This document shows, piece by piece, positions 9,809 through 35,500 of a stretch of DNA of 64,000 bases (positions within the stretch are counted from its first letter, which is position 1; every line of letters begins with the position of its first letter). The position numbers and the translations under genes are program-made. The notes beneath the pieces were generated by a model. That model was not told the DNA's origin. It ran no database searches and saw only the letters and a list, made by a program, of their open reading frames with translations. This DNA comes from an uncultured Clostridia bacterium (GTDB lineage: Bacteria > Bacillota > Clostridia > Christensenellales > UBA1242). The stretch is from contig CALWJY010000007.1 in assembly GCA_944381135.1 (NCBI GenBank), forward strand, positions 1-64,000. Direction: 5' to 3'.

Positions 9809-10189
9809 TCAAATATTGAGTTCGGAAAGTTGAACATTGTGAAGCTTGCGTTGTTCTTCCACCATTGTCGAAATCATGTCTCTGACTTGATATGGATTTT
9901 TAACATTTCTCAAAAGCATGGTTGGCCTTGTTTCGTCATTGCTCTTGATGATGATGACTCCAGTGTTGACAATTTTGCCAATCAATGATTGTCTGAGCGA
10001 AATGTCGATGATGCGATATAAGTTCACTTCCTCAATTGCAGAAAAAAGCAAACCAATGTCTGTGATGAGTTTCACCCAAGCACCTTCTTTTTTCACAAGA
10101 CGATATCTCGTGAAAGAAAGTGGCATGCCCAACCATCTCTTTCTGTCTTTCCAAATGATTTCAGTTCCTTCACCATATTTACTGCTCAT
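9809..10189 (-). CDS. Bacterial PH-domain protein (YdbT/bPH2-like)
   Basis: 126 residues with the strand-rich pattern of bacterial PH domains: RYRLVKKEGAWVKLITDIGL, then SAIEEVNLYRIIDISLRQSL, then a strand with VNTGVIIIKSND and the closing helix NPYQVRDMISTMVEEQRKL. There is no transmembrane segment, unlike many YdbS/YdbT proteins, so it should be cytosolic or peripheral. Family members are membrane- or phospholipid-linked, but their molecular role is largely unknown. The start at 10189 has AAGGAG 8 bases upstream on the minus strand, and a plausible TTTACT-17-TAAAAT promoter lies at 10223-10251. It stands alone with its own terminator. Confidence 0.8.
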   Translation of the reverse strand: MSSKYGEGTEIIWKDRKRWLGMPLSFTRYRLVKKEGAWVKLITDIGLLFSAIEEVNLYRIIDISLRQSLIGKIVNTGVIIIKSNDETRPTMLLRNVKNPYQVRDMISTMVEEQRKLHNVQLSELNI

Positions 10190-12478: not shown

Positions 12479-12565
12479 TTTTCCCTCCTAATGATGATTT
12501 CATTTCAATTTTATCACTTTTTTCTTAAAAATTGCAAAGATTTGAGCGAAAATTTCATGTTTCTT

Positions 12566-12594
12566 TTGACTTTTGACCTGTGTTTTGATAAAAT
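12566..12594 (+). promoter_or_regulatory. Promoter of the ESCRT-like cluster
   Basis: TTGACT (12566-12571), 17-bp spacer, TAAAAT (12589-12594), about 40 bases before the first gene. No comparable promoter is evident in the short gaps of the next five genes, so it probably serves them all. Confidence 0.7.
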
Positions 12595-12634
12595 TTATTC
12601 AAGGAAAAGTGTTTTTTCTTTTCTTGGGAGACTT

Positions 12635-13468
12635 ATGGAACAAAACATAATCAAATTCACGGGAAGCAACGATAAGTTGTTCACAAGAGTTGTTGTGGAC
12701 AAACTGACACCAAAACTGACACTGATTGTGCCAGAAACACACAACGCCATTTTGATTAAAGATGGTCAGATGCTTCAAACGCTTTCTTCGGGCAGATTTT
12801 TGCTTGCCGATTTTTTCGATTTGAAAACCGACCTTGAAAGTGCAATTGAAATTTTGTTTATGTCCAAGACGGCAAAGTTGAAACTGCTTTGGGGCACACC
12901 TTCAAAACTTTTGATGTTTGATGAAAACTTGCAGGAGGACTATCATGCAGGTTTCAGCGGAGATTTTGAAGTGCAAATTGGGGACCCGCGAAAGTGCTAT
13001 CTCTATCTTGTCGGCGCGTCACAAGATTTGACGGCTGACGCATTGCAAGAAAGGCTTTTGTCCAATGTGGTTTCAGTCATGGAGACGGTTGTGGTGGAAT
13101 ATTTGCGCGAAAACAAAGTGCCTTTCAATCAAATTGCTGTTCATAAAAAAGAAATCTCACAAAAAGTTTTAAGTGCGCTGAGCCACAAACTTTTAAGTGA
13201 ATATGGAATTGCGGTTTTTTCTTTTAATATTGCAAACATTATCATTGACCCGGAAGATCACAAACGCCTGAGTGCGCTCGGCAAAAAAGGTTCTGAAAAC
13301 CAAGAAATCAAAACCACTTGCAGAAGATGCGGGGCAACTTTGAAAGAGGGTGTCAAGTTTTGTTCTGAATGTGGTGCGCCGGTGGATGCGGGAAAGATTT
13401 GTACAAACTGTTCTTCAGAGAACGATGCCAACGCGAAATTCTGTTCGACTTGCGGACAAAAACTTTGA
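12635..13468 (+). CDS. SPFH (band 7)-like protein with two C-terminal zinc ribbons
   Basis: 277 residues. The first about 210 resemble the bacterial SPFH / virion-core-like family (B. subtilis YdjI type): strand LIVPETHNAILIKDGQML at 30-47, a turn SSGRFLLADF, beta-rich FSGDFEVQIGDP, then a long helix and HKLLSEYGIAVFSFNIANI. The end carries two zinc ribbons: C229/C232/C243/C246 and C256/C259/C270/C273. There is no transmembrane segment. SPFH proteins scaffold membrane microdomains; in B. subtilis the relative YdjI is encoded with PspA, an ESCRT-III superfamily member. Here it heads a cluster with two Snf7-like proteins and a Vps4-like ATPase, so membrane recruitment of that machine is a reasonable inference. 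The start at 12635 follows GGGAG. Confidence 0.82.
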   Translation: MEQNIIKFTGSNDKLFTRVVVDKLTPKLTLIVPETHNAILIKDGQMLQTLSSGRFLLADFFDLKTDLESAIEILFMSKTAKLKLLWGTPSKLLMFDENLQEDYHAGFSGDFEVQIGDPRKCYLYLVGASQDLTADALQERLLSNVVSVMETVVVEYLRENKVPFNQIAVHKKEISQKVLSALSHKLLSEYGIAVFSFNIANIIIDPEDHKRLSALGKKGSENQEIKTTCRRCGATLKEGVKFCSECGAPVDAGKICTNCSSENDANAKFCSTCGQKL

Positions 13469-13527
13469 AGAGAAGATGAGAAAGAAAAGACAAGGAATGA
13501 AAAAGAAGTGAGAAAAGGAGAAGAAAT

Positions 13528-13938
13528 ATGATTGCACTGTACATCATCATTTTGCTTGTGGTTGTTGGACTTGCAATTTTCTATGTCTGCAGAGAATACA
13601 TCAAAAAACCAGCAGAAGAGAAAAATGGTGGTTCTAAAGGAATTTTGAAAAACAAAAAACAAATTGAAAACATGGTGGCAAATGTGGAAAGCATAATTGT
13701 TTATGCCAACGGAAACGATGCATTGTGCCGAAGACTTGTGGAAGTGAAAGACAACATCAGATTTTTCAATCCAACAACAAACGAAAAAGTCCTTTTGACT
13801 GACACCAAAATTGCAAATCGACTTGATGACCTCAAACTTGCCGTGGCAAAGGACAACACTCAAGAGACCTGTTTCAGACTTTTGGAAGAGGTGGAAGCAT
13901 ACATAGTTCAACGAAAAAAGGATGAAATCAACGAATGA
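13528..13938 (+). CDS. Membrane-anchored protein of the ESCRT-like cluster
   Basis: 136 residues with one N-terminal transmembrane helix (about residues 2-21, MIALYIIILLVVVGLAIFYV), a basic linker, then a cytosolic helical domain of about 100 residues. There is no cleavage site, so it should be an N-out, C-in anchor. No family recognised. The ribosome site AAAGGAGAAG precedes the ATG at 13528, and its stop overlaps the next start by four bases (ATGA), so the two are translationally coupled. It may tether the downstream filament proteins to the membrane, which is an inference from context. Confidence 0.8.
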   Translation: MIALYIIILLVVVGLAIFYVCREYIKKPAEEKNGGSKGILKNKKQIENMVANVESIIVYANGNDALCRRLVEVKDNIRFFNPTTNEKVLLTDTKIANRLDDLKLAVAKDNTQETCFRLLEEVEAYIVQRKKDEINE

Positions 13939-14294
13939 AAAGGTCACATCTGCCATCAGCATCACTTTCTGCAAACGATGTCGAGAGAGTGCAAAAAGAA
14001 TTGACGCTTGGTTTTTTGAATTTAAGTGAGGGGTTTTTCTCTCAAGCGCAAATGAATTTTGAAATTGTCCTCCAAATTGACAAAGCGTGTGCGGATGCAC
14101 ATTGGGGACTTATGCTTGCAAAGTTTCAAATCAAAAACGAGGACGAACTTTCCACAAACCCTGTGCAATTTAAAGAAGTGACGGATTCTTTGGAGTGCAA
14201 AAATGCATTGGAACTTGCTGATGAAAATTTGAAAAACATCTATTTTAGTCTGCTTGAAAACATCAACAAAATCAATGAGGGCGAGAATTATTAA
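13935..14294 (+). CDS. Small TPR-like helical protein
   Basis: 119 residues. The middle reads as a TPR-type helix pair: GFLNLSEGFFSQAQMNFEIVLQ with a following DAHWGLMLAKF segment, the standard spacing of G/A/F positions. The rest is helical and acidic. No signal peptide or membrane segment. It overlaps the preceding gene by four bases. TPR units bind protein partners, so an adaptor role inside this cluster is plausible, but no partner can be read from the sequence. Confidence 0.78.
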   Translation: MKRSHLPSASLSANDVERVQKELTLGFLNLSEGFFSQAQMNFEIVLQIDKACADAHWGLMLAKFQIKNEDELSTNPVQFKEVTDSLECKNALELADENLKNIYFSLLENINKINEGENY

Positions 14295-14359
14295 GTTGTT
14301 GTGAAAAATGCAAAAATCGGTCAAAAACGAAGAAAAGAAAAATCGAAAAAGGAGAAGAT

Positions 14360-14971
14360 ATGTGGCCATTTAGACGAAACAAATTTAAAAACCTAAACCG
14401 CGAGGATCTTGTCAATTCCATTTGCGAGTTGGAGCGTCAGGAGCGCACAGTGGAAGCGGAGGTTTTGCAAAAAATCAAAGAGATTGACGCACTTATGGAA
14501 AAAGGAAAACACGAAAAAAGCAAAGATTTGCAGTTGTTTTACGCCAAGAAAATCACACATCTAAACGAGGAAAAGCAAACTTGCATTGAAAGAGGAATGT
14601 ATCTTCTCTACAACATAAGGCTGATGAACAAACTTAAAGAGGCTTATGACAGCAACACATTCTTTAAGACGCAAACAAAAGTTCCGCTTTCAGAACTTCT
14701 TGCAGACCAAAAGCGCTTGGCAAAATTTTTGAATAAGGCGCTTGTCACAAGAGTTGCAAGTGAAGATGTCTTGACAAACGCTGACGAACTTTTCAATGAG
14801 GTGCAATCGGCATATGAGTTAAATCAGCCAATCTATGGCATAAACAAATCTGAGGACGAAATCTTGAGCATGTTTGAGCGTGAAAATGGGCTTGCAGAAC
14901 AGAATGAACTTCTGGAAGAAAAACAAAATGAAACACCAATCAAAAAGAAAAAAATGAAAATGGAGGAATGA
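14360..14971 (+). CDS. Snf7/ESCRT-III-like coiled-coil protein 1 (CHMP4/6-like)
   Basis: 203 residues, almost all helical. It starts with a hydrophobic-basic tip (MWPFRRNKFK), then a long helical hairpin: helix 1 about 14-45 (LVNSICELERQERTVEAEVL), helix 2 about 52-95 (basic KKITHLNEEKQTCIERGMYL), then shorter helices, and an acidic segment SEDEILSMFERENG at about 165-178, placed like the alpha5/MIM region of CHMP4/CHMP6. The tail is Lys-rich. The pattern of basic hairpin followed by acidic regulatory helices is that of eukaryotic and archaeal ESCRT-III subunits. This is my recognition from layout, not an alignment score. The next gene, four bases away, is a second such protein. Alternative: an unrelated coiled coil. 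Ribosome site AAAGGAGAAG. Confidence 0.72.
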   Translation: MWPFRRNKFKNLNREDLVNSICELERQERTVEAEVLQKIKEIDALMEKGKHEKSKDLQLFYAKKITHLNEEKQTCIERGMYLLYNIRLMNKLKEAYDSNTFFKTQTKVPLSELLADQKRLAKFLNKALVTRVASEDVLTNADELFNEVQSAYELNQPIYGINKSEDEILSMFERENGLAEQNELLEEKQNETPIKKKKMKMEE

Positions 14972-14975
14972 AAAA

Positions 14976-15587
14976 ATGGGACTTTTCAAATCAAAACAAC
15001 AAAAAGAAATTGAGAAAAAGATGTTGATTAAGAGGACAATCAACACCATGAACAAACAAATCAACAAATTGGAAGAGCAGAAAAAGGTTTTCATTGAGGC
15101 TGCAAAACGCGCAAAGATGAAAGATTTGGACGCACAGTTCAAACTTGCACTTTCGGGTTATAAAATGACCGTTCAGCAACAAAAGCGTGCACAAGAAATG
15201 CTTTTGAACTTTGAAATCACGGCACAAATGAAAGATGTCACCATGATGACAAGCGAATTTTTACGTGGAATGAGCGACATTTCAAAGGAAATGACAAAAC
15301 TTGCAGATGCCAAAGAGTTTGCAAAAATTCAGGCTCAGTTTGAAGAGGCAATGGCCGCCGTTGAAACTCAAACAGACCAGATGGACAACTTCATGGAAAT
15401 GAGCCAAGAAACATTCTATAACCAAGGTCTTGACAAGAGCGGAAAACAGATGAGTGATGAAGAATTTGAAAAATTCATCATGGAACAAGCAAGCCAAGAC
15501 GAACTTTCATCCGAAAACATTGACAAAGAAATGGAAGAAGTCAGAAAGAAAATTGAAAGCGAAGTTTCAGAGGATAAAAATTCTTAA
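14976..15587 (+). CDS. Snf7/ESCRT-III-like protein 2 (CHMP2-like)
   Basis: 203 residues, the closest ESCRT-III look-alike here. Basic N-terminus MGLFKSKQQKEIEKK, helical hairpin INTMNKQINKLEEQKKVFIE (about 22-41) then basic AAKRAKMKDLDAQFKLA, a Gln/Arg-rich second helix, a Met-rich stretch MMTSEFLRGMSDISKEMTKL at about 88-107, and FAKIQAQFEEAMAAVETQTD (about 114-133) matching the position and style of the CHMP2 alpha4 segment. The acidic tail ends in an amphipathic helix IDKEMEEVRKKIESE, placed where CHMP2 carries its MIT-binding motif. It lacks the PspA N-terminal signature. ESCRT-III proteins polymerise on membranes and are pulled apart by Vps4; a Vps4-like gene follows 34 bases later. Ribosome site GGAGG lies in the preceding gene's end. 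Confidence 0.8.
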   Translation: MGLFKSKQQKEIEKKMLIKRTINTMNKQINKLEEQKKVFIEAAKRAKMKDLDAQFKLALSGYKMTVQQQKRAQEMLLNFEITAQMKDVTMMTSEFLRGMSDISKEMTKLADAKEFAKIQAQFEEAMAAVETQTDQMDNFMEMSQETFYNQGLDKSGKQMSDEEFEKFIMEQASQDELSSENIDKEMEEVRKKIESEVSEDKNS

Positions 15588-15621
15588 GCTTTTGACATTT
15601 TCTTGACTTTGAGGAGCAAAA

Positions 15622-16770
15622 ATGAAAGAAACCAACATCAATGTCTTGAACGACACTTTTGAACTTTATATGAAAAAAGGCAAGGAGGCACGCGCAAAAG
15701 GGAACATTACGCTTGCCAAAAGGAATTTTTTGCTTGCAAGCGAAATCTTGATGCAAATGGCAAAGCAAAGCCAAGGGCAACTGAAACAGGTGCGCATGGA
15801 AAGGGCGCGTTCGATTGTTGAGATTGCTGAAAATTTGGGGAAGAAAGCGCAAAAGGTTGAAAAGAAAACGGATGATATATCTGGCGAAGAAGATGACGAC
15901 ATCAAGAAATGGCAAACGGCAGAAATTCCAAATGTCACTTTTGACGATGTTGCAGGGCTTGACGATGTCAAGAAAGCCATCACAATCAAGATGATAAATC
16001 CGGTGAAATATCCAGAAAAATATAAGATGTATGGCAAAAAGACGGGCGGCGGAGTGCTTTTGTATGGACCTCCGGGCACAGGCAAAACCATGATTGCCAA
16101 AGCGATTGCAAATGAAGTGAAGGCGAAGTTCTATGCCGTGAAAGGCTCGGACATTGTTAGCAAATGGGTTGGTGACAGTGAGAAAAACATCAATTCACTT
16201 TTTGAAGAGGCAAACAAGCAAGACAGGGCAATCATCTTCATTGACGAAATGGACAGTTTGATTGGAAAACGCGGGCTTGACACGCACAACGACAAACGCG
16301 TCAACGAATTTTTGCAACAGATTGATGGTTTTGCGGGAAGAAATCCAAATTTGCTTCTTTTGGGTGCAACAAACAGACCGTGGGACATCGACAGTGCCGC
16401 CATGCGCTCGGGCAGATTTTCGCAAAAAATATATCTTCCACTTCCAGACGCACCAGCGCGCAAGTTTATGGTTGAGAAAAATATGAGGGGTGTGCCGGTT
16501 GCAAAAGATTTTGATGTGGACAGAATTGTCGAGCAGACTGAGGGATATAGCGGTGCAGACATTGAAGAACTTTGCGACCGCGCAAAAGACGAGCCACTTT
16601 TGCAGGCAATTGCCACAGACAGTGTGGTGCTTGTCACAAATGAAGATTTTGACCGTGTGCTTGAAACGATGCCACCAAGTGTGACGGAAAAAGAGATGAA
16701 GAAATTTGAAGAATATAACAACGAAATCAACAGTTACATACAAAAAAGGAACAAAAAGAAAACCAATTAA
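15622..16770 (+). CDS. Vps4-like AAA ATPase with N-terminal MIT-like domain
   Basis: 382 residues, one AAA module of the classic FtsH/katanin/Vps4 clade. Walker A GPPGTGKT 149-156, pore loop KWVG 181-184 inside SKWVGDSEKN, Walker B IIFIDEMDSL 204-213, sensor 1 in GATNRP 248-253, second region of homology with R262 and R265, sensor 2 GYSGADIEELCD 308-319. Residues about 8-75 form a helical bundle with the MIT pattern (KEARAKGNITLAKRNFLLAS, then RARSIVEIAENLGKK), followed by an acidic linker. In eukaryotes and Asgard archaea this architecture binds ESCRT-III tails and disassembles the filament. It lacks the FtsH protease and transmembrane parts. Start at 15622 after GAGGAG. The AAA call is certain; the MIT call is by eye. 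Confidence 0.88.
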   Translation: MKETNINVLNDTFELYMKKGKEARAKGNITLAKRNFLLASEILMQMAKQSQGQLKQVRMERARSIVEIAENLGKKAQKVEKKTDDISGEEDDDIKKWQTAEIPNVTFDDVAGLDDVKKAITIKMINPVKYPEKYKMYGKKTGGGVLLYGPPGTGKTMIAKAIANEVKAKFYAVKGSDIVSKWVGDSEKNINSLFEEANKQDRAIIFIDEMDSLIGKRGLDTHNDKRVNEFLQQIDGFAGRNPNLLLLGATNRPWDIDSAAMRSGRFSQKIYLPLPDAPARKFMVEKNMRGVPVAKDFDVDRIVEQTEGYSGADIEELCDRAKDEPLLQAIATDSVVLVTNEDFDRVLETMPPSVTEKEMKKFEEYNNEINSYIQKRNKKKTN

Positions 16771-16913
16771 AAAGCAAAAACCAAATGAAAACAAATGAAA
16801 AGTGAAAGAACAAAAATGAAAAGCAAGCATTATAAAAAGCAATAACTTTTCATTCAATCTTTAAGGTGTTTTTCGAAAATTGAAATTGTTGGGGCTTTGG
16901 AAACAGGAAAAAT

Positions 16914-19900
16914 ATGAGAGAGCGTGTTTGCAAAAATTGTGGAGGAAGAGAATATAAAGTTGTTGGGCAGAACATGGTCAAATGCATGTTTTGCGGGACT
17001 TTATATGTTGATGAATACGCCTCAAAAGAAGAAGATGTTTTGATTGTTGGTGCAAACGAGATTGTTCGTGAAATGCGTTTTGATGATGCGGTGAAAGAGT
17101 TTGACAAAATTTTGGAACTTTATCCGCGCTCTTTTTCGGCATATTTTGGCAAATGCCTTGCGAAAAACAAAATCATCCTTTTTCCAAACAGCAGAGGCGT
17201 GGTGAAGCGTCCAAGATTTTGCGAAAAAGTTGTTTCCATTTCTGAAGATGAAGATTTCAAACAGGCGCTTAAACTTGCACCTGCAGAGACTGCAAAAACC
17301 TATTCTGACATTGCCAAAAGAATTGACCGCATTAAGAGGCAATATGACGAGCACACTTCAAAAGGCGAATATGATGTCATCATGTGTGCGGTAAATTTTG
17401 ACGATTGTGCCGAAGTTGCCACAAAGGTTTGTGACACGCTTGTGCAGAAAGGCAAGAAAGTCTATTTTTTGCAGAATTTGCCTCAAAATGAAAGAGAAGA
17501 AGATACATTTCGTGCGCTTGAGACAAGCAAAGCATTTTTGTTTTTTGCGACAACAAAAACCGGCTATGCAAACTTTAAACATCTCTATGACAGATATTTC
17601 TTTCTGACACTTTTGCGCAAAAAAGCACGAAGCAGTTTCATTGTTGCACTTGATAAGAAAAAAGTTTCAAAGGACGAACTTCCGCGAGCGTTTTCATTTT
17701 GCAAAAGCGAAATCGATTTAAATTCAATTTCTTTTTTGCAAGATGTTGAAGTGATGATTGAAAACGAACTTGCAAAAACAGTGGATGAGATTGCCAAAAT
17801 TGAGACAGTCAAAATTCAAAAGGTTGAACCGCAAAAGAAAGAATATCTCGACATTGAAACTGTGACACCTGTCGAACTTGGACACTATCAAGTTGAAAAC
17901 CTCAACGCTGGCGACCAAACCAAAATCAAATGGATTTTTCTCAGTTTGAAAAATGGCGACTTTCAAACTGCGCTTGAACTTACTGAGGAAGAACTCAAAA
18001 AAGACCCATACAACAGCAGTCTGTTGCTTGCAAGACTTATGGCGCAGCGACAAATCAGGACGCCGGAAGATTTTTATGCCAACATTTCAAATTTCAGCAA
18101 CAAAGAGCAGATTGATGAAATCTTAAGATATGCCAACCGCGACTTTGCCACCGAATTTATTGACAATTGGGAAAACCTCATCATCAAATTGAATGAAGAG
18201 GAATATTATGAAACCTATCTTCTCTATTTGGCTGGATATAAGACGCCAAATCGTGAAAACTTCATCAAGCACGCCGAGATGATGGCGGTGGACACTCAAA
18301 ATCAAGATTTGATTGAAAAGGTTTTGAAGTGTTTTGACAAAAATGATGTGGACAAGTTTGTTGAGTTCTATTTTATGCTTGCACAAAAAAGTGACAACGC
18401 GCAATATTTTTCCAAAATTTTGGAGATTGACCCGGGTCATGCGCAAAGTAACATTGCGTTTCTTTTAAGCCACTTCAAAACAACTGAAGACAAACTTTCT
18501 TATCAAAACCGCGAAGAAATTGAAAATGTTTTCAAATATCTTGACGAAAATGCCCGCACGCAATTTGTGTGTGCAGTTGTTGACCTCATTTTGCCGGTTG
18601 CCTTTTTTGACCTTGAAAAAGCGCAAAACCAATTGGATTTCTATTTGTCATATGTCACATCGGACGAAAACCTTGCAAAACTTACAGAAAAAATTGCTCG
18701 CAGTTTTCAGGAGATGAAGTTTTTTCAAGTTGCAGAAAAATATTCCACAATTGCAATTTCAAAAACGAAGACTTCCGCGCTCTATTGGCTTTTGATTCAA
18801 ATTAAGGCGCATTGCAGAAATGAAAACGACCTTGTGACCTCTGATGTTAAAATTATGCAAATGCCAGAGTGGGAGACACTTTTGGAAATTTCTGATGACA
18901 AGCAGGATGAGGAATATGCCAAAATTGTCAGCAAAAGCAATTTGTTTCAGGGCGAAAGGCGACCTTTTGAGCCAGACCGCCTTGACAAAGTGCATTTGAA
19001 GGAGAAATTGGAAGAATTCATTTCGCGAAACGAGAAATTGCTTTTGTCCGTTGAAAAAGAAGAAAGCGCAAATTCCATAAGAGGCGTTGGATATTTCAAA
19101 GCACAACTTGAACCTTTCAAAACCTATGTGAAAGATGTTGAAATTGTCACAGAGTTTGAAAGGTATGTTGAAATTTGCGACAAAATTGAAAATAGACTTC
19201 AAGCATTGGATTTGACACTTGACTCTTCCGTCAGTGCCATAAAGATTGCAGAAAAAAATCAAAACATCTCTCAAAGGGTTGAGGTCAAGGAGAAGAAAAC
19301 TCTTTCACCAGAAGAAAAACTGAAAAGAAGGAAATTTCTCTATCGTTTTGTTTGCATCTTTTTGGAATATTTCCCGGTTGCATTCACAACGCTTTTGTTG
19401 ATTGTTTCCCTTTGTGCGCCAAAAGAAGTGTATTTATATTTCAGTCAAGAGTTTTTGATTGTCTCACTTGTATATTCCATTGTGGTGGTGATGGCAAACT
19501 TCTTGCTTTATGTCATAAGAAAAAAGGTTTCATCTGTCAGGTGGAAAAGGGTCTATTGCTCTTTGATGGGCTTGGGCGTTGTCAACCTTTTGTTGTTTTG
19601 TCTGAGTTTCTATCTCATCCCTCAGACACTTTCCATCACCAGCGCGCGCGAACTTCAAGTTTTGATGTCAAACGCAAAATATGCCAACATCGCACTTGCT
19701 GAAGACATAGATTTTGAGGGCGAGGAGTGGAGACCTCATGATTTTTATGGCGAATTTGACGGCGCTGGGCACACAATCAGCAACATAAATTTCTCAAACG
19801 GTGGACTTGTGGACATAAACGATGGCACAATTTCAAATGTGCAAATTGTTGTGACTGAAAGCAACACATCTTTGTCAACTTTTGGCGGAATTGCGCAAAT

Positions 19901-20681
19901 CAACCATGGAAGCATTCAAAATTGCTCCGTCATCGGAAACATCACGGTGACATCAACAGGCGACACTGTGTTTGGAGTCATTGTTGGAAGAAATGTTGGT
20001 GGCACAATTTCGGGTTGTCAAAGCGAACTTACAATTGTGATTGATGCAGAAAATTCCAATGTTTCTGTTGGAGGAATTGCTGGGCGCGCAAGTGGTTCGG
20101 ATGTGCAAATCAGTCAAAATTTCAGTGCATCAAACATCTCCATCAATTCAAATGAGTGTGCAAGCCTGACTGTTGGAGGAGTGGTTGGATATGTCGGCAA
20201 TTTGGGTGGTGAATCTCAAATCTCTCAAAATGTTTTTTCGGGGAATTTGACTCTTTCTGGCAGTGCGCAAACGGCGAATGTTGGCGGACTTGTTGGAGAG
20301 GGGAGAAAGCCTGTTTCTGACAGTTTTTCGCAAGGCACAATTTCCGCAAGTGGTTTGACAGCAAGCGGATATGTTGGCGGACTTTATGGAAGATTCATCA
20401 ATCCAGAATTTGAGCCAATCACACACTGCTATGCCACTGTGCAAATTGACTTTTCTTCACTTGCAAGAGGAACGCTTGTTGGCGGACTTGGCGGAAGAAT
20501 TGACCATTGTTTTTCGACAATCAGTGGTGATGTTGCGAATGTGTTGCAATATGGAGGATTTAATTCAAGCACTTGCGACACCTTGACTTCGGGTTTCTAT
20601 GACAGAAAGTATGGATTTGACACATCAATTTGGGTCATCACTGACTTTGCATATCCTCAACTTGCGTGGCAGGTTGAATGA
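16914..20681 (+). CDS. Zinc ribbon / TIR-like / TPR / transmembrane / beta-helix fusion (1255 residues)
   Basis: Order of parts: zinc ribbon (C6, C9, C24, C27); a TPR-like unit at about 50-90; a TIR-like fold at about 150-290 (EYDVIMCAVN, GKKVYFLQNL, RALETSKAFLFFA, LLRKKARSSFIVALD); helical repeats to about 800; three or four membrane helices at about 806-905; then about 350 residues of Gly/Ser/Asn repeats (GGIAQINHGSIQNCSVIG, VGGIAGRASG, VGGVVGYVGN, VGGLVGEG) typical of GLUG-type beta-helices. The C-terminal part should be outside the cell, the rest inside. Zinc-ribbon/TPR/TIR proteins are common in Bacillota; here the catalytic-Glu region reads HLYDRYFFL, so NADase activity is doubtful. It sits 143 bases after the Vps4-like gene with no terminator between. 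Start at 16914 with a weak AGGAAA site. Confidence 0.8.
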   Translation: MRERVCKNCGGREYKVVGQNMVKCMFCGTLYVDEYASKEEDVLIVGANEIVREMRFDDAVKEFDKILELYPRSFSAYFGKCLAKNKIILFPNSRGVVKRPRFCEKVVSISEDEDFKQALKLAPAETAKTYSDIAKRIDRIKRQYDEHTSKGEYDVIMCAVNFDDCAEVATKVCDTLVQKGKKVYFLQNLPQNEREEDTFRALETSKAFLFFATTKTGYANFKHLYDRYFFLTLLRKKARSSFIVALDKKKVSKDELPRAFSFCKSEIDLNSISFLQDVEVMIENELAKTVDEIAKIETVKIQKVEPQKKEYLDIETVTPVELGHYQVENLNAGDQTKIKWIFLSLKNGDFQTALELTEEELKKDPYNSSLLLARLMAQRQIRTPEDFYANISNFSNKEQIDEILRYANRDFATEFIDNWENLIIKLNEEEYYETYLLYLAGYKTPNRENFIKHAEMMAVDTQNQDLIEKVLKCFDKNDVDKFVEFYFMLAQKSDNAQYFSKILEIDPGHAQSNIAFLLSHFKTTEDKLSYQNREEIENVFKYLDENARTQFVCAVVDLILPVAFFDLEKAQNQLDFYLSYVTSDENLAKLTEKIARSFQEMKFFQVAEKYSTIAISKTKTSALYWLLIQIKAHCRNENDLVTSDVKIMQMPEWETLLEISDDKQDEEYAKIVSKSNLFQGERRPFEPDRLDKVHLKEKLEEFISRNEKLLLSVEKEESANSIRGVGYFKAQLEPFKTYVKDVEIVTEFERYVEICDKIENRLQALDLTLDSSVSAIKIAEKNQNISQRVEVKEKKTLSPEEKLKRRKFLYRFVCIFLEYFPVAFTTLLLIVSLCAPKEVYLYFSQEFLIVSLVYSIVVVMANFLLYVIRKKVSSVRWKRVYCSLMGLGVVNLLLFCLSFYLIPQTLSITSARELQVLMSNAKYANIALAEDIDFEGEEWRPHDFYGEFDGAGHTISNINFSNGGLVDINDGTISNVQIVVTESNTSLSTFGGIAQINHGSIQNCSVIGNITVTSTGDTVFGVIVGRNVGGTISGCQSELTIVIDAENSNVSVGGIAGRASGSDVQISQNFSASNISINSNECASLTVGGVVGYVGNLGGESQISQNVFSGNLTLSGSAQTANVGGLVGEGRKPVSDSFSQGTISASGLTASGYVGGLYGRFINPEFEPITHCYATVQIDFSSLARGTLVGGLGGRIDHCFSTISGDVANVLQYGGFNSSTCDTLTSGFYDRKYGFDTSIWVITDFAYPQLAWQVE

Positions 20682-20909: not shown

Positions 20910-20953
20910 ATGGTTTGTTGACTAAGCAACTTTTTATTTTTTGGAGATTAAAC

Positions 20954-22690
20954 ATGTTTAAACTTTTGCGAAACCTTAAATGGATTGACTATCTTTTCAT
21001 TGTTGTTGTGGTTGGGCTGATTGTGCTTCAAGTTTGGCTTGATTTGACACTTCCAGAATACACCGAAAACATTTTGGCAGAATTTGAAGCCATAAATGCG
21101 GGAGTGGGTGCAAACATTGGCAACATCTTGAAAAATGGTGGATTTATGCTTGCATGTGCACTTGGAAGTTTGGCAAGTGCAATTTCTGTTGGATTTTTTA
21201 CAGCCAACATTTCTTCACGTCTTGCGTTCAACATTCGTGCAAAGGTGTATGACAAAGTGCAAAATTTCTCACTTTCAGAAATCAACAGATTTTCCACAGC
21301 AAGTCTCATCACAAGGACAACAAACGATGTCACACAAGTGCAGATGTTTCTTGCCATGGGAATGCAGGCAATCATCAAAGCGCCAATTCTGGCTGTTTGG
21401 GCAGTGATAAAGATTTTGGACAGAGGTTGGCAATGGTCTGTTGCAACAGCGGTTGCAATTGGGTTTCTTATGATCATGATGTTGATTGTTGTTTTGATTG
21501 CTGTGCCAAAGTTTAAGAAAATTCAAACAATGACGGATGACATCAATGGCTTGACCAGAGAAAATTTGACGGGGATTCGTGTTGTTCGCGCGTCAAATGC
21601 TGAGAAATTTCAAAACGAAAAATTTGAAAAGGCAAACGACAAACTGACAAAAACAAACTTGTTTGTCGGCAAAGTTATGGCAATCATGAGTCCTGGCATG
21701 AGTTTGATGATGAGTGGGCTTTCGCTGGCAATCTATTGGATTGGTGCATACATTGTTGAGGATCCATCGGGGCTTGACAACATGGCAACATTCATGTCTT
21801 ATGCAATGCAAGTTGTCATGGCATTTATGCTTTTGATCATCATTTTCATATTGCTTCCAAGGGCACTCGTGTCCTCAAAACGTCTCAACGAAGTTTTGGA
21901 CACAAAAAATCCCATTGTCAGCGGGAACTTCAAAGGTTCGCCTTATGAAAGTGGATCAGTTGTGTTTGAAAATGTATCGTTTAAATATCCTGATGCAGAT
22001 GAATATGTTCTTAAAGATATAAGTTTCACGGCAAAAGAGGGAGAAACGGTTGCCTTTATTGGTTCGACAGGAAGCGGAAAAAGCACTCTCATCAACCTTA
22101 TTCCAAGACTTTATGACGCCACAGAAGGTCGCGTGCTGATTGATGGAGTGGATGTGAAAGAATATGACATTGAAACGCTGAACAAAAAAATTGGCTATGT
22201 GCCACAACGCGGAGTTCTTTTCAAAGGAACAGTGAAATCGAATGTCGATTTTGGTGACAACAACGCGGATGACGAGATAGTGAAAAAGTCCATAAGTGTT
22301 GCACAGGCCTCCAACTTTGTTTCCAAAATGGGAAATGGTGTGGACAGTCCAATTTCTCAGGGCGGAACAAATGTTTCGGGCGGACAAAAACAAAGGCTTT
22401 CAATTGCGCGTGCAATTGCAAGAAATCCTGAAATTTTCATTTTTGATGACAGTTTCTCGGCTTTGGACTATAAGACCGACAGAAAGTTGCGTTCGGCACT
22501 TAAAAAACACACCGAAAAAGTGACAAAATTCATTGTTGCACAAAGAATTGGAACAATCAAAGATGCAGACAAAATCATTGTGCTTGACAGTGGTAACATG
22601 GTTGGCATGGGCACACATGAAGAACTTTTGAAAACTTGCCCTGTATATCAAGAAATTGCACTCTCACAACTAAGCAAGGAGGAATTGTAA
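20954..22690 (+). CDS. ABC exporter subunit A, permease-ATPase half-transporter with degenerate site
   Basis: 578 residues: six membrane helices in about residues 1-320, then a nucleotide-binding domain with Walker A GSTGSGKS (about 370-377), signature VSGGQKQ (about 474) and Walker B IFIFDDS (about 495-500). The residue after the Walker B Asp is Asp499 where active subunits have the catalytic Glu; this is typical of the degenerate half of heterodimeric exporters such as BmrC/LmrC/TmrA. Its partner follows at 22692, one base after the stop. Substrate unknown; multidrug or lipid export is usual for this type. Start at 20954 after GGAGATT; a 13-codon upstream extension is unsupported. Confidence 0.93.
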   Translation: MFKLLRNLKWIDYLFIVVVVGLIVLQVWLDLTLPEYTENILAEFEAINAGVGANIGNILKNGGFMLACALGSLASAISVGFFTANISSRLAFNIRAKVYDKVQNFSLSEINRFSTASLITRTTNDVTQVQMFLAMGMQAIIKAPILAVWAVIKILDRGWQWSVATAVAIGFLMIMMLIVVLIAVPKFKKIQTMTDDINGLTRENLTGIRVVRASNAEKFQNEKFEKANDKLTKTNLFVGKVMAIMSPGMSLMMSGLSLAIYWIGAYIVEDPSGLDNMATFMSYAMQVVMAFMLLIIIFILLPRALVSSKRLNEVLDTKNPIVSGNFKGSPYESGSVVFENVSFKYPDADEYVLKDISFTAKEGETVAFIGSTGSGKSTLINLIPRLYDATEGRVLIDGVDVKEYDIETLNKKIGYVPQRGVLFKGTVKSNVDFGDNNADDEIVKKSISVAQASNFVSKMGNGVDSPISQGGTNVSGGQKQRLSIARAIARNPEIFIFDDSFSALDYKTDRKLRSALKKHTEKVTKFIVAQRIGTIKDADKIIVLDSGNMVGMGTHEELLKTCPVYQEIALSQLSKEEL

Positions 22691-22691
22691 T

Positions 22692-24506
22692 ATGCCACAC
22701 ATGAAATCAAATGTGGTTGCAGTGGGTTCAAATGCAACCGCAAAAGCAGAAAAAGGCTCATTCAAAAAGTCTATGAGCAAACTTTTCAGATATTGTAAAA
22801 AATATTGGGGATGGATGGTTGGCGCAATTGTGCTTGGCGCAATTGGAACAGTCTTTCAAATCATCGGGCCAAACAAAATTCAAGACATCACAATGTTGAT
22901 TTATGAAGGTGTTTATGGTGGCGGAGCAATGGATATTGAAGCCATCACATCAATTGCAATTTTTCTGGTGATAATCTATGTTGTGGGTGCGATTCTGTCA
23001 TATGCACAGCAATATATCACAAACTCGGTGACGCAACGAACGGTGAAAAGTTTTCGACGAGACATCTCGAAGAAAATCAACAACCTTCCACTCAACTATT
23101 TTGACACGCATATGTATGGCGACATCCTAAGTCGCGTCACAAACGATGTTGACACAATTGGTCAAAGCCTCAACGAAAGCATTGGCGGGCTGATTTCAAA
23201 TGTCATTTTGTTTATTGGCGTTTTGATTATGATGTTTGTCACCGATTGGATTATGGCTTTCACTGTGATTGCTGCAACTCTGATTGGGTTTGCTTTCTCG
23301 CTTTTGTTCTTGACAAGGGCTCAAAAATATTTCGACCAAAATCAAAAAAATCTTGGTGAAATGAATTCTCACATTGAAGAGGTCTATTCTGGACACAATG
23401 TCGTTCAACTTTTCAACGCAAAAGAAAACACCATAAAAGATTTTGCAAAAGTCAACAAAAAACTTCTGAACAGCGGTTGGAAATCGCAGTTCATTTCGGG
23501 TGTGATGATGCCTGTGATGAGCTTTGTTGGAAATTTTGGATATGTTGCCGTCTGCATTGTGGGTGCAGTGCTTGCCAGCAAATTTGGTGCGGAATATTAT
23601 GGAATCATCACTGCCTTCATGATTTATGTCCGTCTGTTCTCGAATCCTCTTTCTCAGATTGCGCAGGCAATGTCGCGTTTGCAATCAACATCGGCGGCAA
23701 GTGGCAGAGTGTTTGAATTTTTGGAAGCGGAAGAACTTGCTGACGAATCTGACAAAACACTTGTGCTTGAAAATGTGAAAGGTGATGTTGAATTTGACCA
23801 TGTTGTTTTTGGATATAATCCAAACAAAATCATCATCAAAGATTTTTCTGCAAAAGTGAAAGCAGGCGAGAAAGTGGCAATTGTTGGACCAACAGGTGCT
23901 GGGAAAACCACACTTGTCAATTTGCTTATGAGATTTTATGAGGTCAATTCGGGGGACATCAAAATTGACGGCGTTTCCACAAAAGACATCAAACGCGAAA
24001 ATGTCCATCAACTTTTTGGAATGGTTTTGCAAGACACTTGGCTGTTTGAGGGCACAATTAAGGAGAATTTGAGATATAACAATCCGGACATCACGGACGA
24101 GCAAATTGTGGACGCTTGCAAGAAGGTGGGCATAGACCACTTCATCCAAACGCTTTCAGATGGCTATGACACTGTCATCACCGATTCTGTCAACTTGTCA
24201 GCAGGACAAAAACAACTTCTGACAATTGCAAGAACGATGATTGCCAACCGCCCAATGATGATTTTGGACGAAGCAACAAGTTCGGTGGACACCAGAACGG
24301 AGGTTTTGTTGCAACAGGCAATGGATAAGGCAATGGAGGGAAGAACATCATTCATCATTGCACACCGTCTGTCAACCATCAAAAATGCAGACATGATTTT
24401 GGTGCTTAAAGACGGCGACATTGTCGAAAAAGGCAATCATGAAGAGTTGCTTGCAAAAGGCGGATTCTATGCCGACTTATACAACAGCCAATTTGAAGAA
24501 GAGTGA
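22692..24506 (+). CDS. ABC exporter subunit B, permease-ATPase half-transporter with intact site
   Basis: 604 residues: a charged N-terminal stretch of about 30, six membrane helices, then a nucleotide-binding domain with Walker A GPTGAGKT (399-406), signature LSAGQKQ (from 502) and Walker B MMILDEA with the catalytic Glu at 527, followed by the H-loop AHRLSTI. The intact catalytic Glu complements the Asp-substituted site of subunit A, so the pair should form an asymmetric heterodimeric exporter in the cytoplasmic membrane. Start at 22692, seven bases after AGGAGG inside the end of subunit A; the two genes are coupled. Confidence 0.94.
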   Translation: MPHMKSNVVAVGSNATAKAEKGSFKKSMSKLFRYCKKYWGWMVGAIVLGAIGTVFQIIGPNKIQDITMLIYEGVYGGGAMDIEAITSIAIFLVIIYVVGAILSYAQQYITNSVTQRTVKSFRRDISKKINNLPLNYFDTHMYGDILSRVTNDVDTIGQSLNESIGGLISNVILFIGVLIMMFVTDWIMAFTVIAATLIGFAFSLLFLTRAQKYFDQNQKNLGEMNSHIEEVYSGHNVVQLFNAKENTIKDFAKVNKKLLNSGWKSQFISGVMMPVMSFVGNFGYVAVCIVGAVLASKFGAEYYGIITAFMIYVRLFSNPLSQIAQAMSRLQSTSAASGRVFEFLEAEELADESDKTLVLENVKGDVEFDHVVFGYNPNKIIIKDFSAKVKAGEKVAIVGPTGAGKTTLVNLLMRFYEVNSGDIKIDGVSTKDIKRENVHQLFGMVLQDTWLFEGTIKENLRYNNPDITDEQIVDACKKVGIDHFIQTLSDGYDTVITDSVNLSAGQKQLLTIARTMIANRPMMILDEATSSVDTRTEVLLQQAMDKAMEGRTSFIIAHRLSTIKNADMILVLKDGDIVEKGNHEELLAKGGFYADLYNSQFEEE

Positions 24507-32589: not shown

Positions 32590-35500
32590 ATGAAGAAATT
32601 TAATGCTGTTTTGATGTCTGTTTTGACAATTGTCTTGACAAGTGTGCTGGCCGCATGCTCGTTTAAAAAAGTCGAGGCAAGTTTTTCTTTGGACGAACTT
32701 GCAATTTCCCAAACGGAAACAATCAATTTGGACGACTATCTTTCTGTTGCGGGAGTGGACCTTGAAGAAGTGGATTTTGGAGTTTCCAATTCCTCTGTCT
32801 TGCAGATTGAGGGGCACACGCTGTCAGCAAAAGCGATTGGAAAGGCGACGGTCTATGCTTCCTACAATCAAAATCAACTTGCAAGCATGAACATCGTTGT
32901 GAAGGATGTCTTCAGCACTCCAAGTGGGGTTTCGCTTTCAGAAGGTGGACTTCTGACATGGCAAGCGGTGTCTGGCGTTTATGGAGACCAAACCGTTGCC
33001 ACCAACCCTGCAGGATATCTGATTGAGGGTGAGTTTGTTCCTTATTATTCTGACGATGAAGTTGGTGAAACCACACCAATTTCTGTCACAACGCAGGAGT
33101 GCAGTTTGCAACTTGAAGAGGGAAGATATTCTCTTTCAATCACCGCTCTTGGAAATGGATATTTTGACGACAGTCAGCCTTCGCCGTTGCAAAACTTTTA
33201 TGTTGGTTTCATGGAGCAACTCACAGCCGATAGTTTCACTTGGAATGACGGAGTTTTGACTTGGGATGCAATTGCGGGCGCAACATACAGAGTTAGATTT
33301 GATGATGTTGTTTTGGAAGAGCAACAAACCACATCCAAAGATTTGACATCTCAATTTGAATCTGCCTCAGCGGGCGAACATTTTGTCTCTGTTGTTGTGT
33401 ATGATGCTGAGGGCGACAAGTTTGCAATGCAAAGCGAGGTTTTGACAATCACCAAACTTGACACTCCAACGGCAACATTTGCAAATGGTCAGATTGAAAT
33501 TTCTTCTGATGCGGATGTGGCTGAATATGCAATTTCTGCTACAAATTTGGGAGACGAGACTTTTGATTTGGAAGTTGTCAACAATGCAGAAACTTTGACA
33601 AACACACTTGACGGGTTGACCTCAGGAGTTTATTCTGTGAGTGTTGTTGCAAAAAACGAAAGTTCTGCCAACGGATTATTTTTCCATAGTGACTCCTTAA
33701 GTCTTGGGCAAGCCTACAAACTTGACGCGCCAATAATTTCTGGAACAGGCAACAATGAAGTTGATGGCACAATTTTGAGTGCATCAGTTTCAAGTCGGCA
33801 AGTGCCTGTTGGAACAAGTTTTGAGGTTTCAGGTGCAACGCTTGAAACTCCATCAGGACTTGAAGCAAATGGAACTCAAACAGATGTTGATTTTGTTTTG
33901 TCAACTGCTGGAACATTTGAATTAAGCGTGAGGCAAATTGCACTCGAGCAAACATATTTGGAGGACGGACAGACCATCAATGTGATAAATTCCGACTTTG
34001 GCGAAAGTGTGTCTGTCACAAAAGTTTCAGCCTTTTCAAGTGAGATTGTTCATCAATATGGCGACACCGCTTCAATCTTGTCGTTTGAAAATGTGGTTGG
34101 CGCAACAGAGTATGAACTTCAACGCTGGAACGGAGAAGAATTTGTTGCAGTGCCAACAGAAAATTATGATGTTGAGATTGATTCCACTGTTCAGATTGTT
34201 TTGACAGACAGAGTTGAAAACCTGTTTGCGCAAACGGACGGAGAATTTAGATTTGTTGTGATTGCAAAAACTGAAGATGACAATCTTGCAATCAATTCTT
34301 CAGAACAAAAGGTTTTGAGGGTTTTGACCGCTCCAACATCTGAGGGAAGCGGTAACACGACAAATCTTGAGTATACTTTTGGTGAAGTTGAAAACGCAAC
34401 TTCCTATCGTTTGGAAATCTACACACTCACAAAAGAGCAGTTTGATGAAGAAGAGTTTGACCCTTCCTCACTTGTGCCAGAAAGAGTGGATGAAGAAAGC
34501 AATTCTCACACCTTTGAAAGAGAGGGATATTATCTTGTCAGAGTTTTTGCAATTTCCGATAATGAAAACGAATTTGTTTCCGCAAAAGACTCCTATCTGG
34601 AAGAGAAATTTCGCATTCTGAAACAACTTGAATTGGGGGAAGTTCAATTTGGATATGACGAGGCGCGCGACACCGACAATTTGACAGAGACGACGGGATA
34701 TTTTGTTCAAATTTCAAGACCTGATGCGGATGTGACAGCATATCGCATTTCGGTTGGCGAAGACTTCATCACTCCTCAAGCCACCGAGCAAGACCAAAAC
34801 ATTTTTCTCTTGCCATCCAATTTTGCAAGTGGGCAAACCACTTTGACAATTGTTGGAACGGGTGAAGATGATGACATATATCTTTCCACAACGCCTTTTG
34901 AACTTAATGTTTCAAGGCTTGCCGATGTGGCGTTTGCCGATTTGGTTGTGGATGATTTTTGGCCAACATCAACCATAACACTGCCAACATCCTCAGGAGT
35001 TCGTGCGGTTGAAATCTATGATGAAGTTGGACAAACAAACCATTTGAATGACAATGGCGATGTTTCAGTTTCGGTTGCAGGAGAGGAATATTCTTCATTT
35101 TCAATGCGCTTCAGACGCTATGGCACAGCGCAAGACGATTTCACGAAATTTTTCCAAATTGACGGCGACACGGTTTATTTGAACAGCAACCAAACAACGA
35201 TTGCTTTCCAGCGCCTTGACAGACCAACGAACTTCCAATATTATGACGGCGATTTGACTTTCCAACACACAAATGTGACAGCAACAACAGATTCAACAGG
35301 TGCATATGTGCTTGAACTTGTTTGCACAACTCCAAATTCGTCACAGAACATAAGTGTCAGATTTTTCGCAAATGAAGCGGTTGCAATTCCTCAAGGTTTG
35401 GAAGAAATTTCGCTTGGACAAACATCAACATTTCTTTCAACAGAGGGAAATGCTGTGACAATTGATTTGCAACTTTTGCTTGAAACTATGCAAGAACAGC

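Follow-up and report, generated by a model that had tools for sequence, protein, structure and literature searches.

In the survey by Makarova et al., systems that combine proteins of the endosomal sorting complex required for transport III (ESCRT-III) with the ATPase Vps4 are confined to archaea and eukaryotes, and an SPFH protein with a zinc ribbon is found in the archaeal Meth_adaptin ESCRT loci (Makarova et al., 2024; PMC11188069). PspA and Vipp1 were placed in the ESCRT-III superfamily by Liu et al., who left their ATPase open (PMC8281802). According to a paper on the phage shock protein (PSP) system, Vps4-like ATPases were transferred to bacteria with displacement of snf7 by a TPR/6TM gene; the paper also mentions homologues of PspA and Snf7 in bacteria that have a transmembrane segment and lie beside an AAA+ ATPase, which is a partial precedent for the locus described here (PMC11237479). 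No report of a bacterial operon with ESCRT-III and Vps4 was found in our searches, which were mostly at the level of abstracts, with subscription papers outside them. Here we analyse a cluster of seven genes (A to G) in a stretch of 64,000 nucleotides (the window) from an uncultured Clostridia bacterium (assembly GCA_944381135.1, contig CALWJY010000007.1). By sequence comparison, the product of gene E is homologous to archaeal ESCRT-III, and the adjacent gene F encodes a Vps4-like ATPase. We interpret the cluster as a bacterial ESCRT-III/Vps4-type operon, and regard ESCRT-type membrane remodelling as the best reading of its role and a reasonably probable one.

The initial annotation of this DNA had described six tightly spaced genes on one strand, with a seventh 143 bases further on. 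All seven open reading frames (ORFs), spanning 12635-20681, lie at the places and on the strand given there, and the intergenic gaps from A to G are, in order, 59, -4, 65, 4, 34 and 143 bases. The start of gene A is an ATG inside ORF 12491-13468. The features are as follows.

Gene A, 12635-13468, plus strand: SPFH/Band_7 protein with a C-terminal double zinc ribbon, without a transmembrane peak (Pfam, hydropathy).
Gene B, 13528-13938, plus strand: small protein with a single predicted N-terminal transmembrane helix (hydropathy).
Gene C, 13935-14294, plus strand: protein of 119 residues that repeatedly but weakly matches proteins of the gene G family (phmmer cross-matches).
Gene D, 14360-14971, plus strand: helical protein of 203 residues, probable second ESCRT-III-like subunit.
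Gene E, 14976-15587, plus strand: protein of 203 residues, ESCRT-III homologue of the Thermococcales kind (archaeal profile, alignment, E-family hidden Markov model (HMM)).
C-terminal helix of E, 15510-15581, plus strand: MIM1-like pattern, proposed handle for the ATPase (AlphaFold2 (AF2) helix 179-202, tail patterns).
Gene F, 15622-16770, plus strand: Vps4-like AAA ATPase (Pfam, NCBIfam).
N-terminal helical bundle of F, 15643-15846, plus strand: MIT-like (profile of F N-termini).
AAA module of F, 16054-16443, plus strand: Walker A GPPGTGKT (residue 149), pore loop SKWVGDSEK (180) and Walker B IIFIDE (204) (Pfam AAA).
Gene G, 16914-20681, plus strand: protein of 1255 residues with a zinc ribbon (by eye), a TIR-like domain, a middle region, predicted transmembrane helices and a C-terminal ectodomain.
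TIR-like domain of G, 17367-17783, plus strand: alignment with 10 relatives; the Glu of the W-V-x-N-E type motif is not conserved in the window copy.

Gene E, its archaeal relatives and gene D

A plasmid search with F led to the Vps4 locus of Thermococcus peptonophilus, where a protein of 188 residues (L134:7885-8451) is encoded two genes after the Vps4 ATPase. Window E aligned with this protein at 27% identity over 190 residues (69.7 bits), and a 15-row alignment of E matched it in hhalign with a P of 3.7e-12. When 260 proteins were ranked by E using hhalign, the Thermococcus protein came first (P 7.7e-14) and the second place had a P of 0.0047. We built an archaeal profile from 119 relatives of the Thermococcus protein (120 of 139 listed, one short sequence dropped). 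Among the best 120 of 139, the relatives with organism names came from Thermococcus, Palaeococcus, one Thermoplasmata and one Nitrosocaldaceae, all of them archaea. The archaeal relatives found for E are mainly euryarchaeal, and several of them carry PF03357. As search set for the profile we used 1198 ORFs, taken from the fetched loci and the window, with some genomes entered twice. Places 1 to 63 were all E-family proteins with E-values below 1e-6 (52 distinct sequences), window E scoring 57.1 bits (E-value 1.1e-16); the next ORF was a Thermococcus gene (E-value 0.0037), and the best reversed decoy scored 10.2 bits. This run was without a positive control, since an antisense ORF had been picked at the place of the Thermococcus protein, which was thus absent from the 1198 ORFs, and it missed two distant E-family proteins (in L040 and L044). 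In the reverse test, the E-family HMM matched all 119 archaeal proteins, with scores of 71.4 to 41.4 bits.

Window E was unmatched by Pfam Snf7 at an E-value of 1, and 2 of 15 E members matched, the better with an E-value of 0.00054. The Thermococcus protein itself scores 20.5 bits, under the cut-off of 27.3, and we take the gathering score as diagnostic and not as defining, since this protein fails it too. Neither D nor E matched any family above cut-off in Pfam, NCBIfam or PADLOC, and sequence searches of the PDB with E, as a single sequence or as a profile, returned nothing useful. Across whole genomes, subthreshold Snf7 matches turned up in 6 of 14 controls as well as in 19 of 101 genomes, none over the cut-off, and are not specific alone. 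Of the seven best such places, three are the E genes of genomes G055, G046 and G024, and a fourth is the gene that precedes F in G079, which was not matched by the E profile; the other three lie elsewhere.

The initial annotation had depicted D and E as helical proteins of about 203 residues with a basic first half and an acidic tail, and this holds for both: residues 1-110 have an isoelectric point of 9.2 in D and 9.9 in E, and the remainder 4.7 and 4.1, respectively. It had also raised the possibility of plain coiled coils without the ESCRT-III helical hairpin. The AF2 model of E (pLDDT 72.5, pTM 0.51) has helices at residues 7-48, 52-109, 112-150, 161-172 and 179-202, which is the ESCRT-III order of a long alpha1, a long alpha2/3, alpha4, alpha5 and a C-terminal helix. 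The last helix often reads I-D-x-E-[LM]-x-x-[LV]-[KR]-[KR]. A loose MIM1-like pattern matched 62 of 70 distinct E tails compared to 12% of shuffled tails, and a strict one matched 47 of 70 compared to 0.2%. As these patterns were written after the tails had been inspected, we propose that this helix may be the handle gripped by F.

The annotation had counted two Snf7-like subunits, and this stands for E. A relation between D and E was not detectable by hhalign (P 0.067), and we rejected D as a paralogue of E at the level of sequence. The best outside match of D is another gene of the Thermococcus Vps4 locus (L134:3506-4111; HMM 13.5 bits, E-value 0.0027; hhalign P 3.9e-5), which also came first when 260 proteins were ranked by D (P 4.9e-5) and which itself matches Pfam Snf7 weakly (E-value 0.64). 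Places 2 to 7 of that ranking are taken by genes beside E or in Vps4 loci (L173, L133, Chlorohelix, L043 and two from Halomicrobium), the nominal decoys at ranks 2, 3 and 5 being E-adjacent genes in distant loci; L173 and L133 probably represent one genome, because their scores are identical. Structure comparison settles nothing for D. We take D to be a probable, not a demonstrated, second ESCRT-III-like subunit.

The ATPase and the other products of the cluster

F consists of a single intact AAA module followed by a tail with the Vps4_C oligomerisation domain; in Pfam it matched AAA (145 bits), AAA_lid_3 (40 bits) and Vps4_C (23.9 bits, cut-off 21.3). Against NCBIfam, residues 8-368 matched CdvC with 217.6 bits (cut-off 650) and CDC48 scored 227.4 bits, both far under their cut-offs, and the Thermococcus Vps4 gave the same order (CdvC 197.7, CDC48 206.4). 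The annotation's MIT-Vps4 architecture holds for the AAA module, Vps4_C and an N-terminus resembling that of archaeal Vps4, and not for Pfam MIT itself. A profile of F N-termini was used to rank 306 sequences, of which 300 were decoys, the top one being in fact a family member and a true decoy standing at rank 5. Five Vps4-type N-termini, three haloarchaeal and those of Thermococcus and Chlorohelix, took places 2, 3, 4, 6 and 7 (P 8e-7 to 0.0012), and the MIT domain of yeast Vps4 was 56th. Pfam MIT matched the relative in L030 with an E-value of 0.035, below cut-off, and matched none of four archaeal-type reference N-termini, two of which, both haloarchaeal, matched TPR weakly. A PDB search with residues 1-88 of F gave two weak matches, 9s82 (JUBO2, E-value 0.31) and 2mpk (chitin synthase 1, E-value 0.99), the latter of which we take to be an MIT domain. 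We call the bundle of F MIT-like because archaeal Vps4 N-termini match it, Pfam MIT being subthreshold at best. The annotation had compared the arrangement to that of Asgard archaea and eukaryotes; the mainly euryarchaeal relatives found and the low place of the yeast MIT domain did not support this, in a comparison made without Asgard sequences.

We also placed F in a tree of AAA domains with 39 rows (two of an earlier 41 were left out as long or gappy), with a thin reference set lacking CdvC, Asgard Vps4, katanin and spastin. On one side of a branch with support of 98/93 stand F, Vps4 and two AAA proteins of actinobacteria, and on the other Cdc48 and FtsH. With constrained trees, the union of F with Vps4 was not rejected (p 0.25), and those with Cdc48 and with FtsH were rejected (p 0.007 each), so that the phylogeny did not place F with a non-Vps4 clade, an outcome that the annotation had allowed for. 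The assignment of F as Vps4-like is fairly supported by these comparisons. Longer F homologues of 672-713 residues occur in L032, L042 and L121-L125. In the one from L042, the N-terminal bundle is followed by an extra SpoVK/CbbX-type AAA domain and then by the Vps4-like one; the extra domain is an insert that aligns in L032, and the ORFs of L033 and L034 retain just the insert part.

The SPFH protein of the annotation is borne out by gene A, which matched Band_7_1 with 53.2 bits (cut-off 24) and Zn_Ribbon_1 with 52.5 bits in Pfam and showed no transmembrane peak in hydropathy. Genes B and C had no Pfam family above cut-off, and the hydropathy of B peaks at residue 2 (3.05). In G, transmembrane peaks fall at residues 813, 847 and 884, with a C-terminal part beyond them, in keeping with the transmembrane protein that had been predicted. 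Its TIR-like character was identified through relatives: window G did not match Pfam TIR at an E-value of 1, and G homologues in L034, L042, L044 and L186 matched TIR_2 with 39.3 to 42.7 bits (cut-off 28). In TIR NADases, the Glu of a W-V-x-N-E type motif is catalytic. The motif is present in 8 of 10 aligned G relatives and absent from the window copy, L035 and L167; it occurs in 23 of 68 G-family proteins longer than 600 residues, a set that includes one probable false member (window 55895-64000).

Further domains accompany the cluster in relatives. Proteins L042:2011-6447 and L186:2789-8512 each unite a TIR domain with hydrophobic segments and with leucine-rich repeats of the BspA type, which resembles the make-up of Toll in inverted order. 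Genes for trypsin-like proteins lie within the cluster at L040:7304-8137, L042:6499-7272 and L167:9638-10816, adjoining the ATPase gene in L040 and L042 and the SPFH gene in L167; by eye, the L040 and L042 proteins begin with a zinc ribbon. Fusions of an ESCRT-III domain occur with an FtsK/SpoIIIE DNA translocase in L167:11506-13419, L168:5359-7278, L169:9769-11670 and L171:7719-9254, and with a RuvB-type ATPase (RuvB_N, lid and RuvB_C matches) in L170:4966-6633. The RuvB fusion scored 24.5 bits against Pfam Snf7 (E-value 2.4e-5, cut-off 27.3).

Conservation and distribution of the cluster

Scanning named genomes with the E alignment yielded 51 loci, with titles naming Clostridia, Clostridiales, Eubacteriales, Christensenella or Christensenellaceae, Bacillota and Firmicutes, and one 'uncultured bacterium'. 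We counted 47 of these, many being close relatives, and excluded L092, L113, L116 and L129, in which the ORF picker kept no E. An F-type ATPase, scored by a full-length ATPase profile and not by MIT, lies downstream of E in 47/47 loci and a G-type gene in 37/47; upstream, SPFH is present in 42/47, D in 41/47 and B in 34/47. Four of the five loci without SPFH have less than 2.3 kb of contig upstream; the fifth, L123, has 9 kb and no SPFH gene. Because the arrangement recurs in the 47 counted loci, it is not due to chance, and the lack of co-occurrence that the annotation had considered was not observed. Both the homology of E and the gene order are well supported.

Of 101 whole genomes, the window's own among them, 28 have E; within the genus it occurs in 24 of 60 others, and across the order in 44 of 396, spread over 22 of 142 genera. 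It was found in none of 397 other genomes drawn from the phylum, the window's own being the sole positive of 398. In some genomes a single locus bears two or three E-type genes. Where named, the near relatives of E (best 120 of 535) belong to Clostridia metagenome-assembled genomes, among them one Candidatus Caccovivens, and many of the Clostridia that bear the cluster come from animal guts. PspA_IM30 was above cut-off in 0 of the 101 genomes (11 had weak matches) compared to 9 of 14 controls; it was absent from G000 at an E-value of 0.01, and the families listed for E members (25 of 29) do not include it. Members of the FtsZ/tubulin family occur in 97 of the 101 genomes, the window's among them.

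The window's genome assembly comprises 1.19 Mb in 16 contigs. Promoter and terminator scans were at chance level (16 compared to 14.6 expected, and 8 compared to 7.8 expected, respectively). Upstream of the cluster, a protein with a bacterial PH domain (bPH_2) is encoded on the minus strand at 9809-10189, and small ORFs resembling it by eye lie upstream in several loci of the genus. An ABC exporter gene pair follows the cluster directly (20915-24506), and ORFs sized like this pair stand after G in several same-genus loci. The window also contains two giant ORFs, at 32590-43407 (3605 residues) and 55895-64000 (more than 2700 residues, running off the window); a Pfam scan of the first 1470 residues of the former gave nothing at an E-value of 0.001.

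Possible roles and comparison with known systems

With an archaeal ESCRT-III relative next to a Vps4-like ATPase, the cluster would probably equip these bacteria to remodel or mend their membranes with a machine of that kind. In such a machine, the SPFH protein A would set the site on the inner face of the membrane, where E, probably with D, would polymerise. The N-terminal bundle of F may capture the C-terminal MIM1-like helix of E, and F may thread E through its pore and pull the polymer apart. G could sense a surface or envelope signal and relay it via its TIR-like and zinc-ribbon cytoplasmic part, starting assembly. Under envelope stress, the outcome would likely be repair, fission or sealing of membranes. 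The sequences show the homology of E, the architecture of F, the SPFH and zinc-ribbon protein and the gene order; polymerisation, membrane binding, capture of the E tail, threading and signalling are what we infer.

Several observations weigh against membrane remodelling. Fold searches returned no hit with an E-value of 0.001 or lower. Foldseek paired the E model with CdvB at a probability of 0.93 but with an E-value of 0.2 and TM-scores of 0.32-0.36. VIA-align paired residues 70-166 of E with the N-terminal hairpin of Snf7, CHMP1B and Asgard ESCRT-IIIB, out of register, and seryl-tRNA synthetase coiled coils tied with the ESCRT-III rows. Since these rows are out of register and tied, the fold support from the model is limited to its helix order. 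D is weakly supported as an ESCRT-III subunit. As for F, the window N-terminus is unmatched by Pfam MIT, the protein forms its own clade in the AAA tree (99/97), and in pairwise comparisons its AAA domain scored 182-189 bits with Cdc48 D2 and 196 with a Streptomyces AAA protein compared to 143 with the Thermococcus Vps4, FtsH also outscoring archaeal Vps4. Finally, the fusions to FtsK and RuvB in relatives are unexpected for a purely membrane machine.

The main rival is a conflict or surveillance system in which the transmembrane TIR protein would sense an invader at the cell surface, and the ESCRT-III polymer with its ATPase would serve as a scaffold that gathers effectors, for example against phages. 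TIR_2 and the W-V-x-N-E type motif in the G family, the trypsin genes that L040, L042 and L167 have in their clusters, the leucine-rich repeats of L042 and L186, the FtsK/SpoIIIE and RuvB fusions and the patchy presence within the genus all fit such a system. However, PADLOC matched the AAA domain of F alone (best IetA, 137.7 bits) and none of the other six genes, the Thermococcus Vps4 likewise matches an anti-phage ATPase model (108 bits), and the window TIR lacks the conserved Glu; we consider a conflict role possible but doubtful. The higher scores of F with Cdc48 D2 than with archaeal Vps4, seen also in NCBIfam, would suit another arrangement, in which E and D are coiled-coil adaptors delivering substrates to a Cdc48-like unfoldase, without a membrane polymer. 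Yet the Thermococcus Vps4 gives the same order of scores, the union of F with Cdc48 was rejected in the constrained trees and E is homologous to ESCRT-III, which makes this arrangement unlikely.

The SPFH partner and the tandem helical proteins would also fit an envelope-stress operon of a divergent PspA/SPFH type whose AAA ATPase is unrelated, and Vipp1 is among the best Foldseek rows for the D model. The counterpart of such an operon in Bacillus subtilis would be ydjFGHI. Such an operon is disfavoured for E by the match to archaeal ESCRT-III and by the distribution of PspA_IM30 described above, and we rate it as very improbable. Fission in cell division or sporulation, in the manner of archaeal Cdv, could draw on the same homology of E and on the FtsK fusions in relatives, but 36 of the 60 other genomes from the genus yielded no E. 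The cluster does not replace FtsZ, which the genome keeps, and we set a division role aside because FtsZ is present; we see very little chance of it, and the least among these explanations.

ESCRT-type membrane remodelling remains our preferred reading, and it can be extended, tentatively and with less than even expectation, to a surveillance system. In this Clostridia lineage, a true ESCRT-III/Vps4 machine may have been combined with a Toll-like transmembrane receptor, joining membrane remodelling to immune-type signalling. The receptor would carry a zinc ribbon and TIR inside and leucine-rich or other repeats outside, and the FtsK and RuvB fusions and trypsin-like proteases of relatives could belong to the same system. 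The cluster is a counter-example to the restriction of ESCRT-III with Vps4 to archaea and eukaryotes that the survey gives (PMC11188069). Genes A to G form a small bacterial set that could serve as a model for how an SPFH protein, two subunits and one ATPase act together, and the cluster raises the question whether ESCRT-III and Vps4 moved between archaea and bacteria. The links to TIR, FtsK and RuvB hint at further uses of ESCRT polymers, none of which, to our knowledge, is known from eukaryotes.

Compared with bacterial PspA/Vipp1 systems, the cluster has in common the ESCRT-III superfamily and an SPFH partner; it differs in that E falls on the archaeal ESCRT-III side by homology, is accompanied by a Vps4-like ATPase and comes without PspA_IM30 above cut-off. 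In the transfers of Vps4-like ATPases to bacteria, snf7 was displaced, according to that paper (PMC11237479), whereas in the window an ESCRT-III gene lies directly upstream of the ATPase gene. A plasmid of Chlorohelix (Chloroflexota) bears a cluster (L137:1-2455) with genes for proteins of 210 and 194 residues, a Vps4-like ATPase and a kinase. The similarity of its two small proteins to D and E is weak (ranks 4 and 6 of 260), and its ATPase groups with archaeal Vps4 (100/99). The Meth_adaptin loci resemble the window in encoding an SPFH-zinc ribbon protein with Vps4 (PMC11188069), but the window genes had no adaptin-appendage or GOLD match in a Pfam scan. The ESCRT loci of Thermococcales contain Vps4, ESCRT-III, a kinase and a phosphatase, and from this gene content we assigned them to the 'Main' clade of that survey (PMC11188069). 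They differ from the window cluster, which is without a kinase or phosphatase gene, has SPFH-zinc ribbon, small transmembrane and TIR-like transmembrane proteins, and stands in a bacterial host. E is directly homologous to the ESCRT-III-like protein on the T. peptonophilus plasmid, the layout of F is the same, and D has its weak match in that same locus. Among the sequences compared, the Thermococcales loci are the nearest to the window cluster.

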